DNA of 64,000 nt from Rhizobiales bacterium Ga0077537 (GTDB lineage Bacteria; Pseudomonadota; Alphaproteobacteria; Rhizobiales; Hyphomicrobiaceae), in NCBI GenBank assembly GCA_001464955.1, contig LNEM01000036.1:62001-126000 (forward strand). The letters run 5' to 3'. Below, piece by piece: positions 7,083 through 37,468 of this stretch (the stretch's first letter is position 1; each line of letters opens with the position of its first letter). The position numbers were made by a program, and so were the translations under genes. The notes under the pieces are model-generated. The model was not told the DNA's origin. It did no database searches and saw nothing but the letters and a program-made list of their open reading frames with translations.

Positions 7083-7715
7083 ATGGTCCAGTTAATGGCG
7101 CAGCAGTCCTATCCGCAGTCTGATCCGATTGCCTCCCGTGTCGAAGCCGACCGCCGCCGTCACCGCCGCGTGCCGTTGACCCTGCTGGGCCGCTTCATGC
7201 GCTCGAACAAGCAGGAATTCCCCTGCAAGCTCATTGATATCTCGGTCGGTGGCGCCGCGATGATGTCGCCCGTCGCTGTCGAGGACGGCGAGCAGATCGT
7301 GGTCTATCTCGACCAGATCGGCGGCCTCGAAGGCAAGGTCGTTCGTAATTTTCCCGGCGGCTTCGCGCTGGCGCTGACGGCCACCCAGCATCGCCGCGAG
7401 AAACTCGCCGCCCAGTTGACCTGGCTGATCAACCGCCACGAACTCGAGCCGGCCGAAGCGCGCCGCCACGAGCGCGTCGTGCCAAGGAACCCGTCATCCC
7501 AGTTGACCATCGGTGACGCCGATCCCGTCGCCTGCGATGTCATCGACGTCTCGATCTCCGGCGCCTCGATCGCGACGGAGCTGCGCCCGCCGCTCGATAC
7601 CGAAGTGTTCCTCGGCAAGCTGCGCAGCCGAGTCGTCCGCCACCACGACAGCGGCATTGCCGTCCGCTTCCTCGACATCCAGCAGCCGACCGCGCTTCGC
7701 CGTTATTTCGGCTGA
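7083..7715 (+). CDS. PilZ domain protein with two tandem PilZ domains
   Basis: A 210-residue protein that probably binds cyclic di-GMP. The first PilZ domain has the R-x-x-x-R arm RRHRRVP (about residues 21-30) and the D-x-S-x-x-G motif DISVGGA (about 53-59). The second has RRHERVVP (about 126-133) and DVSISGA (about 158-164). Both repeats keep the ligand-binding signature. The next gene, a LapG-like protease, is a family often controlled by c-di-GMP, so the pair may be functionally linked (inference). ATG at 7083; a second in-frame ATG at 7095 is an equally possible start. Confidence 0.88.
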   Translation: MVQLMAQQSYPQSDPIASRVEADRRRHRRVPLTLLGRFMRSNKQEFPCKLIDISVGGAAMMSPVAVEDGEQIVVYLDQIGGLEGKVVRNFPGGFALALTATQHRREKLAAQLTWLINRHELEPAEARRHERVVPRNPSSQLTIGDADPVACDVIDVSISGASIATELRPPLDTEVFLGKLRSRVVRHHDSGIAVRFLDIQQPTALRRYFG

Positions 7716-7799: not shown

Positions 7800-8453
7800 A
7801 TGTTCAAGTTTGTCAGGCTCGTCGCGTTGTTGCTCGTGGCATTGGTGGTGGTGCCCCTTCGGACTGCAGCCGATCCAGCCCCCGTTGCGGGGCCCAAGGC
7901 GTCGCCGCCGGCCCCGTTCATGCGGGTCTACGGGCCGTCGCTTCCCCCCTTCGGATACGTTCGATTCTGCGCGGCTTTCCCCGCGGAGTGCCGGCGCGGA
8001 GACTTTGAAGAGAACCGCATGTCGGCGAGCGCTGAGCGGATGGCGGAACTCGATCGCATCAATCGCGAGATCAACAAGGCCATTGCGCCGGCAACCGACA
8101 TGGACATCTACGGCGAGATCGAACGCTGGACGCTGCCCGTTTCACGAGGCGACTGCGAGGATTACGCGCTCTTGAAGCGCAAGACGCTCATGCGCATGGG
8201 CTGGCCGTCGGGTGCGCTTCTGATCACCGTCGTCCGCGACGAGAAGGGCGAAGGTCACGCCATTCTGACGGCGAGAACGAGCAAGGGCGACTTCATCCTC
8301 GACAACAAGAACGACGAACTGAAGCTCTGGAGCGCCACGCCCTACAAGTACGTGATGCGCCAGTCCTACATCGATCCGAACGTGTGGCTGTCGCTCGATC
8401 CGGCAGCCGTGGTCCAGCCGGCGATGCTGGGCGGCACCCGCGAAGGTCCGTGA
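7800..8453 (+). CDS. transglutaminase-like cysteine peptidase (BTLCP, LapG-like)
   Basis: A 217-residue exported protein of the bacterial transglutaminase-like cysteine proteinase family (PF06035). A signal peptide covers about residues 1-24. The catalytic triad is visible as Cys in GDCEDYA (about residue 119), His in GEGHAIL (about 151) and Asp in FILDNKND (about 165). LapG, the best-known member, cleaves surface adhesins when c-di-GMP is low. No LapD or large adhesin is recognisable here, so the substrate is unknown. It follows the PilZ gene by 84 bp on the same strand. Confidence 0.9.
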   Translation: MFKFVRLVALLLVALVVVPLRTAADPAPVAGPKASPPAPFMRVYGPSLPPFGYVRFCAAFPAECRRGDFEENRMSASAERMAELDRINREINKAIAPATDMDIYGEIERWTLPVSRGDCEDYALLKRKTLMRMGWPSGALLITVVRDEKGEGHAILTARTSKGDFILDNKNDELKLWSATPYKYVMRQSYIDPNVWLSLDPAAVVQPAMLGGTREGP

Positions 8454-10386: not shown

Positions 10387-13221
10387 TCAGGTCGCCGGAC
10401 CCGCCCCCGCGGCGGCATACTGGATGTAGCCGTTGGTCGCCAGGGTATCGCCGCGCCCGAACCCCGACGTGATCCCGTCCTCCGGCCGCCACATGCCCGT
10501 GGAGAACACGCTGGCCGCCTCGGTCTCGTAGGTCACGCCATCGAGCACCACCTTGTCGACGATCAGGTTGCGGTCGATGCCGAGCTGCGGCTGCCAGAGA
10601 TCGTTGGTGAAGGTCAGCCGGATGTCCTCGATCGCGAGCTGCGTCGGACTGTTGTAGACGATCACCTGCCCGCCGGCACCCAGGTCGAGGTACGTCGCCA
10701 CCGTCTGGCCGTCGATGACGAGCTGCATGGTCTCTTCCCCGCGTTCGCCGCGGGCGAAGATGGCGAGCGTCGAGCCGTCCTCGACGGGCGTGTCCGCGTA
10801 CTGGAAGTAGCCGTTGGTAGCGAGCGTGTCGCCGCGGCCGAAACCGGCAACGATGCCATCCTCCGCCAGCCACGAGCCCGTCGAGTAGACGTTGGCGGCT
10901 TCCGTCTCGTAGCTCACGCCGTCGATCCGGATCTTGTCGACGATCAGATTGTAGTCGATGGCGGCGGCCGGCTCGTAGCGATCGTTGAGGAACGCGACGC
11001 GGACGTCACCGGGCGAAACCGGTCCCGAGGCCCGGAACGCATAGGTCGCGCCACCGACGGCGACGTTCTCGAACACCGCGGCCACGTTGCCGCCGATCGA
11101 CAATTGCATGATCTCGGCGCCGGTCTGGCCTCTCGCCAACACTTCGATCAGCGAGCCCGTGGCCGTGCCGGCCGCCACCGTGACGCTGTATGTCGCGGTA
11201 TCCTCCGCCCCATTCGCGTCTGCCACGGCATAGCTCACGCTCGTCGTGCGCGTCGTGCCGGGTGCGAGATCGCCGAAGTCACCGTCGGGTGTGAAGCTGG
11301 CGGCCCCGTCGGCACCGATCACGAAGCGCCCGCCCGCGCTGCCGTCGACCCCGACGCCGACCCGCGCCGGCACCCCGTTGACGGCGCTGACCCGCAGCGC
11401 CGACGCCGGTCCGTCCGGATCGCTGTCGTTGGCGAGCACATTGACCGATGTCGGCAGCAGTGGCGAGGTGGTGCCGCTGTCGTTGACGGCCTCCGGCGCC
11501 TGGTTGGCGGCGGCTCCGCCGGTGATCTCGAGCCGCCCGACATGATTGCGCACGAGATCGACGTAATAGACGTAACCGTCGTCGCCCTGCGTGAAATGCA
11601 CCGGCGCAAAGCGGTTCGGCGTCGTGTAGAGGTACGTCACCTCGCGCCGGTCGTTGAGGTCGACCGTGAAGACCTCGCCCTGCGACACGTCGGCGAAGAA
11701 ATAGTCGTTCTGCAGCGCCACCGGATAGCGGTTGCCGTCATAGACGACGTCGCCGCCGGTGATCGCCTGGAGCTGATAGCCGGGGTCGTTGTTGAGATGC
11801 GAGAAGCCCCTGTAGGCGCCGGTAACCTCGATGGTGCCGGCCGCCACCGCCGCATAGAACTGCGCGGCGCCGGCTTGCGTGTTGTAGCCCGGCGTCTGCC
11901 GGAGAACGCCGCCGTCGCCGCCCTCGTAGTAGGGCCAGCCGAAATTCGCACCCGGACCGCCGACGTTGATCTCCTCGTAGGAGTTCCAGCCCGTATCGCT
12001 GATGACGAGCTGTCCCGCCTGATCGAACGTCATCGAGAACGGATTCCTGAGCCCCGACTGATAGACGCGGGCCCGGTTCGACGACAGGCTGACGCCCGCC
12101 TCGACGAACGGATTGTCGGCGAGCCCGAGCCCCGTCGCCGGATCGATGCGCAGGATCTTGCCGGACAGGCTGTCGAGGTTCTGGACGCTGGCGCTGCGGG
12201 GATCGGCGAAGTTGAACGACGTGCCGTCGCCGATCGAGACGTAGAGCGCACCATCCGGGCCGAACGCTAGCGCCCCGCCGGCATGCGAGCGCGAATCCAC
12301 CTTGATGTAGTCGTCGACGTAGCCGCCGCCGGGAAGGCGTCCGGATTCCGCCTGCGACAGGTTCGAGGTGCTGTCCACCGACCCGCCACCGCTGATGTCG
12401 GCGAGTGTGCGGCCAGCGCCCCCGAGGATGATCGTCTCGCTGCCGGGCACCGCCGTGCGATACCCGGTGGCGACGTCCGCCGTGAACCGCACGACGTGCG
12501 CGAACCGGTTGCCGCCGCCGTCCGGCCCGGCATTGCCGCTGAGGCCCTGCGCTTGCGGCGGATCCACGACATAGAACGCGTAGATGTGGGGCTGGCTCGG
12601 GAAGTTCGGATCGAGCGCGATGTCTAGCAACCCGCGATCCTGGATGTTGTTGACCTTCGGCGCGATGTTGACGAACGTCGAGAGCGTGCTGCCCGTCGTC
12701 AGATCGACGAGCTTGATCGCGCCACCCTTCTCGGCCACGTACCCGAGCATCGCGCCGGCCGGCGTATTGGGCAGCCCCGACACCATCTCGAGGTCGATCG
12801 GCTGCGAGAGGCCGCTCGCCACCACGCGTTCCGTGACACTGTAGGGCGAGACGAGCGGCGGCGTGGCCGGATCGGTGACCGGGGTCTCGTTGTCGAGAAT
12901 GGCGACCCGCGTGGTCCTGGGGGCTTGCAGGACGGCGCCTTCCACATTGGTCAGCGACACCGTGAACGTCTCTGTCGCCTCGCCGGCCTGATCGTCGAGA
13001 ATGGTGACAGGGACGAGGATGCGATCCTGCCCGGCGGCGAAGGTCACTGTGCCGGTCCGGGCGACGAAGTCCTGTCCTGCGACGGCCTCGTTGCCGGTGA
13101 TGGAATAGTCGACGCTGGCCGGGGTGCTGAGGTCGCCCGTGCGCACGATGGGCACGAAGACCTGCCCTTGCGTTTCGGCGGCGCTGATCTCCGTCTCACC
13201 CAGAAAAACGGTCCCTGACAT
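10387..13221 (-). CDS. modular Calx-beta / PQQ-type sugar dehydrogenase-like / CBM60-like protein
   Basis: A 944-residue modular protein. In order: a Calx-beta-like domain (about residues 1-115, calcium-type acidic loops such as ILDDQAGEATETF); a six-bladed glucose/sorbosone dehydrogenase-like propeller (about 125-570, with HAGGALAFGPDGALYVSIGD and the following GLRNPF segment); a cadherin/Big_9-like domain (about 575-685, NDSDPDG motif); and two repeats of about 115 residues (about 690-800 and 815-930), each ending GRGDTLATNGY, that resemble Ca-dependent xylan-binding CBM60 modules. No N-terminal signal peptide is visible, so export would need a type I or other route. No secretion genes are nearby. 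It probably oxidises or binds sugars outside the cell; the substrate is unknown. Confidence 0.85.
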   Translation of the reverse strand: MSGTVFLGETEISAAETQGQVFVPIVRTGDLSTPASVDYSITGNEAVAGQDFVARTGTVTFAAGQDRILVPVTILDDQAGEATETFTVSLTNVEGAVLQAPRTTRVAILDNETPVTDPATPPLVSPYSVTERVVASGLSQPIDLEMVSGLPNTPAGAMLGYVAEKGGAIKLVDLTTGSTLSTFVNIAPKVNNIQDRGLLDIALDPNFPSQPHIYAFYVVDPPQAQGLSGNAGPDGGGNRFAHVVRFTADVATGYRTAVPGSETIILGGAGRTLADISGGGSVDSTSNLSQAESGRLPGGGYVDDYIKVDSRSHAGGALAFGPDGALYVSIGDGTSFNFADPRSASVQNLDSLSGKILRIDPATGLGLADNPFVEAGVSLSSNRARVYQSGLRNPFSMTFDQAGQLVISDTGWNSYEEINVGGPGANFGWPYYEGGDGGVLRQTPGYNTQAGAAQFYAAVAAGTIEVTGAYRGFSHLNNDPGYQLQAITGGDVVYDGNRYPVALQNDYFFADVSQGEVFTVDLNDRREVTYLYTTPNRFAPVHFTQGDDGYVYYVDLVRNHVGRLEITGGAAANQAPEAVNDSGTTSPLLPTSVNVLANDSDPDGPASALRVSAVNGVPARVGVGVDGSAGGRFVIGADGAASFTPDGDFGDLAPGTTRTTSVSYAVADANGAEDTATYSVTVAAGTATGSLIEVLARGQTGAEIMQLSIGGNVAAVFENVAVGGATYAFRASGPVSPGDVRVAFLNDRYEPAAAIDYNLIVDKIRIDGVSYETEAANVYSTGSWLAEDGIVAGFGRGDTLATNGYFQYADTPVEDGSTLAIFARGERGEETMQLVIDGQTVATYLDLGAGGQVIVYNSPTQLAIEDIRLTFTNDLWQPQLGIDRNLIVDKVVLDGVTYETEAASVFSTGMWRPEDGITSGFGRGDTLATNGYIQYAAAGAGPAT

Positions 13222-33026: not shown

Positions 33027-33736
33027 GGCCCGTCCCGTCGATGCGGCTTGGCCGCAGGTCTGCATGTCTCTCTAGAGAGGGCTTATCGCACCGTGTCTCG
33101 CGATTTGTCCAGCGAGCCGGGGCGAGGGGTGCGCCAGACCGGTCAGCTCCTGCCAGCCCTCGGGACATGGAGCGATCTTGGTGCATTTCCGCCACGCTGC
33201 CTCACATTGGAATCGGACTACCTTCTCATGTGCGGTGGCGGGGTGTGTCTGCCCGCAGGTTTTGCACACCACCCCGTACGCACCGTCCCCCGTCCCCGGC
33301 GGCGCAATCCCGGGCTTTACCCCGCGGATCATCCACTGGTTATCCGCCGCGGATTTGGTGTCATCTACATTTAGTGGCTAGGCCAACTGTATAACCCCAA
33401 GACCTCGTGACGAGCCGCTCGAATCGTCCTAGTCTCTCCTCCTGTCGCCGCGCTTGTGTCACTTGTGCGGCACCATCAACACCCTCACGAAACGGCTGCG
33501 GTTCTGCGGCCATTTCAACCCGAGTATCGCCGGAAAGCATTGTTTTCCGGGCTGTATCCTTGCGTCCAGTGTAGCCGTGTGTGGCATGGGCAACCCCATG
33601 CTGTTGTATCCGTGCCTCGATGAGATCACGGGCGTTCATCCGACAGAGAGAAATTGGCGGTCGTGGACCGTCCGAGCCGCCGGCATACCCGGTGCAGCTG
33701 GACGCATGGCCGTGCGAATGCGAGAGCGGGGCACGA
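33027..33736. other. 710-bp region upstream of NDUFA12 and nrdJ
   Basis: This should contain the divergent promoters of the NDUFA12 gene and nrdJ. A short minus-strand frame (33072-33332) might be a small zinc-binding protein. I looked for a cobalamin riboswitch before the B12-dependent nrdJ and found no B12-box-like sequence. The region 33540-33600 has imperfect hairpin potential (cggaaagcattgttttccgg). Confidence 0.5.
33072..33332 (-). CDS. possible small cysteine-rich protein
   Basis: An 86-residue frame with CKTCGQTHPATAHEKVVRFQC, a zinc-ribbon-like spacing, and two further cysteines. It lacks a good ribosome site and uses AGA, ATA, GTA and CAA codons more than its neighbours, so it may be foreign, decayed or not a gene. 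Confidence 0.25.
   Translation of the reverse strand: MIRGVKPGIAPPGTGDGAYGVVCKTCGQTHPATAHEKVVRFQCEAAWRKCTKIAPCPEGWQELTGLAHPSPRLAGQIARHGAISPL

Positions 33737-37468
<3,732 letters not shown>

Follow-up and report, generated by a model that had tools for sequence, protein, structure and literature searches.

We found that a gene of Rhizobiales bacterium Ga0077537 encodes a 944-aa protein that is, in our moderately confident reading, an extracellular, calcium-dependent and glycan-tethered protein of the sugar-oxidoreductase type that is exported by a type I secretion system (T1SS). The protein is assembled from the modules listed below, has no signal peptide and no cysteine, and keeps the catalytic His, Arg and Asn of its propeller; its genome encodes T1SS-type exporters, and two of its orthologues carry T1SS tails. 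We infer its export route, the polysaccharide that it would bind, its reaction and its cofactor.

The gene lies in a 64-kb stretch of DNA that was analysed as a whole (the window). Its open reading frame starts with an ATG and is a genuine gene: a chance frame is ruled out because it is conserved in relatives, with 71% identity to the nearest relative (L026, over residues 1-940) and 56% to L027. An in-frame stop codon 12 codons 5' of the ATG closes the frame and excludes an overlooked signal peptide upstream. An earlier note on this DNA, made from the sequence alone, had described a large sugar-dehydrogenase-like protein with CBM60 repeats, and Pfam matches to Calx-beta, GSDH, Big_9 and two CBM60 copies, all above curated cut-offs, bear this description out. 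At the L026 locus 8 of the 9 queried flanking genes are kept, and none of these was found at the other 16 loci searched. The genes close to that of the 944-aa protein are ordinary (serine acetyltransferase, DUF3126, hexapeptide-repeat protein, thiolase-like, CoA-transferase). The same stretch holds a class II (B12-dependent) ribonucleotide reductase gene at 33581-37468 on the plus strand.

Features of the 944-aa protein and its gene (positions are those of the window)
Feature	Residues	Position	Strand	Evidence
Whole gene, Calx-beta/GSDH/Big_9/CBM60 x2 protein		10387..13221	minus	ORF, Pfam, composition
Calx-beta	2-110	12892..13218	minus	PF03160 69.5 bits; Foldseek CALX-CBD1 (3ead_C) TMt 0.92
GSDH six-bladed beta-propeller	~125-567	11521..12849	minus	PF07995 125.7 bits; AlphaFold2 vs 3a9g
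Equivalent of catalytic His144 of Acinetobacter sGDH	His313	12283..12285	minus	kept in 48/48 rows
Equivalents of sGDH Arg228/Asn229	Arg392-Asn393	12043..12048	minus	Arg 48/48, Asn 46/48
Big_9 / cadherin-like Ig spacer	572-680	11182..11508	minus	PF17963 49.7 bits
CBM60 copy 1	~688-811	10789..11160	minus	Pfam; phmmer to solved CBM60 2xhh, E 8.4e-6
CBM60 copy 2	~815-938	10408..10779	minus	phmmer 2xfd, E 1.9e-8; tail model; Foldseek 2xhh E 1.3e-7
Tail of ~9 residues behind last CBM60 strand		10390..10416	minus	tail model; no RTX/T1SS target domain in protein

The Calx-beta module starts immediately behind the start codon. The GSDH match in Pfam is split into three stretches, and the AlphaFold2 model of the protein (48 aligned sequences) has a mean pLDDT of 80, values over 90 being reached in much of the propeller; against 3a9g it gave a Z of 42.4 and an rmsd of 2.1 over 323 residues. 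PQQ sugar dehydrogenases (3a9g) ranked first among the fold matches of the propeller, followed by HHIP (Z ~31) and fungal AA12 enzymes (Z 27-29). The GSDH fold is thus shared with HHIP, which is not known to be an enzyme. In an NCBIfam scan no model reached its cut-off, the PQQ subfamily TIGR03606 scoring 65.5 bits against 434.55. PF16841 (CBM60) scored 124.5 bits in two stretches, and a second model, of the C-terminal part (18 sequences, mean pLDDT 84), matched 2xhh and 2xfd, the last CBM60 strand being residues 247-251 of the model, or 931-935 of the protein. The module reading of the earlier note, which had proposed structure prediction as a check, is right. Calx-beta, GSDH, Big-like and CBM60 modules are all of an extracellular type.

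Between the two CBM60 copies, 63 of 124 residues (51%) are identical. Both carry the ND...D.N residues, which vary little or not at all across an alignment of 18 rows, and both carry GxW, the W being invariant over these rows in copy 1 only. Given this identity and the motifs kept in both, the suggestion that the repeats are divergent enough to bind different ligands found no support.

A scan of GTDB species genomes yielded 67 loci, mainly from Alphaproteobacteria, Cyanobacteria, Planctomycetota and Larkinella. Fifty-eight of these were taken further (L079, L082, L084 and L086-L091 were left out); L072, L076 and L092 had no full GSDH match and were skipped. Of the 55 stretches that then remained, 47 went, together with the 944-aa protein, into the 48-row alignment used below. 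Pfam was run on 43 family proteins, including the 944-aa protein and an orthologue described below (L113), with near-duplicates left out. A Calx-beta match was obtained in all of them but one (42/43; the exception is L071), and a carbohydrate-binding-type module in 35, from several phyla. Two of the six seed peptides of the search lie in CBM60, which inflates the frequency of CBM60 among the relatives (13/43), and therefore only other module types give an unbiased sign of recurrence. Of the 30 proteins without CBM60, 22 have a legume-type lectin, C-type lectin, PA14 or LamG module, among them some with PA14 alone and L071 with LamG/H-lectin; PA14 binds sugars. The eight proteins without a carbohydrate-binding-type module are L029, L032, L036, L037, L038 (cut at its 5' end), L073, L077 and L113. 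The module combination, which had been called unusual, is instead a recurrent one.

Among the alphaproteobacterial orthologues, a common N-terminal Calx-beta/GSDH core is followed by a variable C-terminal side. CBM60 stands behind the core in the 944-aa protein, L026, L027, L028, L033, L035 and L030 (3' end cut), RTX repeats in L032, He_PIG plus the T1SS target domain TIGR03661 in L113, and a legume-type lectin in L039 and L031 (cut at 3'). L036, L037 and L077 have Calx-beta repeats and a C-terminus that, in our judgement and with no domain over cut-off, has a T1SS look. In a tree of the core, one CBM60-tailed group comprises the 944-aa protein with L026 (99/99) and L027 with L028 (100/100), the two pairs being joined at only 80/87; L030, L033 and L035 form a second such group (100/98), and support for pairing the RTX row with the TIGR03661 row is 100/100. 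In cyanobacterial and planctomycete members the core is mostly C-terminal, often with an N-terminal DUF4347. This domain was found on the N-terminal side of 16 of the 43 proteins (L045, L043, L063, L051, L062 and 11 others), mainly in Cyanobacteria and Planctomycetota, and because crude hydropathy reveals no clear signal peptide in many such members, DUF4347 may be a sorting module. In Mycolicibacterium chubuense, a 2579-aa frame with an open 5' end (L029:1-7737) has its own strong GSDH match and a second Calx-beta/GSDH unit that is 56% identical to that of the 944-aa protein; this second unit looks like a lateral transfer.

The lack of a signal peptide, likewise reported in the earlier note, was upheld by hydropathy and by the closed frame, which excludes the in-frame upstream signal peptide that the note had named as a refutation. 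With the best 10-residue Kyte-Doolittle mean near the N-terminus, a crude measure, the 944-aa protein scored 1.02. Of 13 alphaproteobacterial relatives whose N-terminus is open, 12 scored 0.69-1.73 and the remaining one, L039, 2.08 at its Calx-beta start; the value was 3.1-3.6 for Sec-type starts of Larkinella. That the protein is cytoplasmic, its modules working inside the cell, fits this N-terminus, but the extracellular type of the modules, the polysaccharide-binding module at the tail, the absence of cysteine and the RTX or T1SS tails of orthologues make this reading highly improbable.

A search for type I secretion signals and ABC exporters had been proposed in the earlier note, and it lends support from the genome, which has an exporter, and from two orthologues, which have tails. 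In the protein itself, Pfam and NCBIfam scans found neither an RTX repeat nor a T1SS target domain. RTX repeats are present in L032, an orthologue from Bauldia (46.5 bits against a cut-off of 23), and L113, from genome G055, is 50% identical over residues 1-617 and has a TIGR03661 domain (41.4 bits, cut-off 17.6). The L113 gene ends ~120 bp from convergent genes for HlyD (TIGR01843, 394 bits) and an LssB-type ABC exporter (TIGR03375, 731 bits, over cut-off). The genome of the 944-aa protein has a PrtD-type exporter (692 bits, cut-off 510), an HlyD (TIGR01843, 331 bits, over cut-off) that adjoins a second ABC scoring below the PrtD cut-off, and 49 RTX matches. PrtD was over cut-off in 9 of 14 genomes, including this one and those of L026, L027, L028, L030, L033 and L035, and was not found over cut-off in G055, G063, G068, G069 and G071. 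No T1SS gene was found within the window or in the flanks (up to 6 kb) of L026, L027, L028, L030 and L035, and the flank of L033 gave only an ABC match of 29-33%. A T1SS operon linked to the gene of the 944-aa protein or to its CBM60-tailed orthologues was thus not found, the sole linkage seen being that in G055.

Composition points in the same direction as the exporters. The 944-aa protein (pI 4.2), L113 (1462 aa) and 13 alphaproteobacterial relatives (14,965 aa; counting began at the first aligned residue, and three of the 13 lack their 3' end) together contain no Cys in 17,371 aa. Cys amounts to 0.09% in 17 cyanobacterial members and 0.26% in nine planctomycete members, and to 1.43% in 14 other window genes together. 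These 14 genes are an imperfect control: one of them is Cys-free and others are Cys-rich metal proteins, and 333 aa of an Asd-type paralogue segment from the same genome are likewise without Cys. The pI is 4.05-4.39 in the 944-aa protein and 11 relatives. A review describes acidity as a trait of RTX proteins, and the absence of Cys as one of RTX lipases and of S-layer RTX proteins (PMC3034196). We favour type I secretion because of the RTX repeats of L032, the TIGR03661 domain and adjoining exporter of L113, PrtD in the genomes, the Cys-free composition and the acidic pI; the reading is weakened because the 944-aa protein has neither a T1SS tail of its own nor a linked exporter.

These same gaps, with only ~9 residues beyond the last CBM60 strand, speak for another signal-less export route or release by lysis, the T1SS features of orthologues then not being transferable to the CBM60-tailed clade. 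However, a signal-less N-terminus and the absence of Cys are common to the RTX-, TIGR03661- and CBM60-tailed orthologues, and a PrtD-type exporter was over cut-off in 9/9 tested genomes with a CBM60-tailed protein that lacks a signal-like start (GSDH type in G000, G060, G061, G062, G064, G066 and G067; GH16 type in G110 and G216). We therefore consider such a route unlikely.

A PilZ-domain gene (7083-7715, plus strand) lies beside a gene for a transglutaminase-like cysteine protease (Peptidase_C93; 7800-8453, plus strand) in the window, and both are kept beside the L026 orthologue. Peptidase_C93 is the Pfam family that holds LapG. A LapG-like system was considered from these two genes and not adopted: the N-terminus is Calx-beta and no retention module, and the only [TAP]AAG motif of the 944-aa protein, at residue 936, is at the wrong end.

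CBM60 is rare in the surroundings of this genome, with 12 of 199 genomes of its order and 10 of 385 of its class (own genome counted in both). Among the non-GSDH CBM60 proteins inspected, eight combine the lack of a signal-like start with RTX motifs (L138, L139, L172, L173, L176, L177, L178 and L180; for L138 and L139 the motifs were judged by reading the sequence). Two GH16 proteins (L143:7022-8788 and L145:7608-9758) have no signal-like start, no RTX match and two or three CBM60 reaching to near the C-terminus; PrtD is over cut-off in both genomes, and Cys is 0 in L145 and two in L143. Other cases differ: CBM60 is N-terminal in L174 and L175 (the latter reaching a contig end), the start is strongly hydrophobic in L179 (2.29) and L181 (2.6), and visual inspection suggests membrane-bound or Sec-exported proteins for L140-L142, L146 and L147; L144 has 4124 aa. 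Judging from these sequences, CBM60 accompanies T1SS-type proteins in Alphaproteobacteria, though not exclusively.

The chemistry of the propeller is the second uncertain part of our reading. Residues of soluble PQQ glucose dehydrogenase (sGDH) named in PMC6881810 are His144, Arg228, Asn229, Gly247 and Pro248, and equivalences were counted by hand on a sequence alignment with sGDH. G411 corresponds to Gly247, the calcium-loop Gly, which is invariant or nearly so in the 48 rows. Where sGDH has Gln231, the 944-aa protein has Phe, and at the positions of Pro248, Lys377, Arg406 and Arg408 it has Trp, Ser, Ala and Val, respectively. By sequence alignment, with no superposition, the equivalents of Arg406 and Arg408 (Ala539 and Val541) are basic in 1/48 and 0/48 rows; that of Gln231 is Gln in 0/48, and the Pro248 position is mostly Trp. 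The equivalent of Lys377 (Ser513) is basic in 0/48 rows but does not discriminate, since L003, an Asd-type paralogue in the same genome, and 7cdy have Ala there. Arg406 of sGDH is a PQQ anchor. The RxR motif is kept in sGDH, E. coli Asd (2g8s), 7cdy, 3a9g and L003, which also retains Gln231 and Gly-Pro beside its R-I-R and is without Lys377. Among seven control GSDH proteins L003 keeps both Arg, neither is present in L015 or L021, only the first is apparently retained, as we read it, in L016 and L019, and for L022 and L023 the alignment stops short. Because several controls lack it too, loss of RxR may mark a broad GSDH branch and not this family specifically. An assignment of Arg196 as an anchor of the AA12 type (Arg273/Arg57) was unsupported by the residue offset of the fold alignment, itself an estimate.

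In the genome of the 944-aa protein, rated 100% complete, pqqC was not found and pqqE was not over cut-off; among 14 genomes pqqC was present in 4 and pqqE over cut-off in 5. The label "PQQ-dependent" is therefore doubtful for this protein, and sugar-oxidising activity stays putative. For the "PQQ-type propeller" of the earlier note, the GSDH fold and the His/Arg/Asn stand, but the case is weakened by the missing Arg406/Arg408 anchors and by pqqC and pqqE not being found. Arg408 and Lys377 of sGDH contact PQQ and AA12 has no Lys377 (PMC6881789), AA12 enzymes hold PQQ by a partly different anchor set (PMC6881789, PMC6881810), and PQQ is used by fungi and E. coli although they do not synthesise it, scavenging being discussed (PMC6881810). 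By analogy, the host of the 944-aa protein may scavenge PQQ.

The same losses, of the Arg406/Arg408 pair and Gln231 against an RxR kept in sGDH, both Asd proteins, 7cdy and 3a9g, together with the PQQ genes not found and the repeated, adhesin-like lectin fusions, would also suit an exported, glycan-bound non-dehydrogenase, an adhesin or matrix protein whose propeller has lost PQQ and is lectin-like or of hydrolase/lyase type. Such a protein is possible but somewhat unlikely: the His144/Arg228/Asn229 equivalents and the calcium-loop Gly are near-invariant in 48 rows from several phyla and needless for a scaffold, and the AA12, fungal and E. coli cases (PMC6881789, PMC6881810) show partly different anchors and the use of PQQ that is not made.

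In the favoured reading of a T1SS-exported sugar oxidoreductase, the protein would be synthesised with no Sec signal. A T1SS of its own genome would very probably export it unfolded and in one step, and it would fold outside the cell, where Ca2+ is high, its Calx-beta, GSDH calcium site and CBM60 all being of calcium type. The two CBM60 would grip a polysaccharide of the xylan or beta-glucan type, judged solely from solved CBM60, and the propeller with its kept His-Arg-Asn site would act on nearby sugar ends. More speculatively, and in our view rather unlikely, C-terminal CBM60 of Alphaproteobacteria may replace both RTX block and secretion signal: calcium-folding CBM60, unfolded inside and folded outside, would power type I export and then anchor to glycan a cargo from a GSDH branch that works without the Arg406/Arg408 anchors. 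If true, a type I secretion substrate can have calcium-binding carbohydrate modules in place of its RTX tail.

In the open-licence literature we found no report joining CBM60, DUF4347, or carbohydrate-binding modules plus RTX, with type I secretion, nor Calx-beta with sugar dehydrogenase; excerpts of a paper from that literature on sorbosone dehydrogenase with type I secretion gave no Calx-beta. By this literature, the widespread class of exoproteins in which a propeller of the sugar-oxidase type is coupled to varying lectin or CBM modules is apparently undescribed, and its GSDH branch calls for caution against automatic "PQQ-dependent" annotation.

With sGDH of Acinetobacter and aldose sugar dehydrogenases (Asd; 2g8s, 3a9g, 3das), the 944-aa protein shares the six-bladed propeller, the catalytic His/Arg/Asn and the calcium-loop Gly; it differs in the replaced Arg406/Arg408 and Gln231 equivalents, the mostly Trp position of Pro248, the lack of a Sec signal and the fusion to Calx-beta, Ig and CBM60. 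The AA12-AA8 pyranose dehydrogenase CcPDH (Coprinopsis) and TrAA12 (Trichoderma) have the same PQQ-type six-bladed propeller (fold Z 27-29); they are fungal and not known to have Calx-beta or CBM60, and CcPDH bears a haem b domain for electron transfer and also a CBM1. Both propellers act on sugars, and their hosts do not synthesise PQQ (PMC6881789, PMC6881810). Solved CBM60 (vCBM60, 2xfd/2xhh) show the same fold along both repeats, whereas the 944-aa protein joins it to a signal-less propeller. With alphaproteobacterial RTX/T1SS exoproteins it has in common the absence of signal peptide and Cys, acidity and calcium-type modules; unlike in these, CBM60 occupies the usual place of the RTX block and C-terminal signal.
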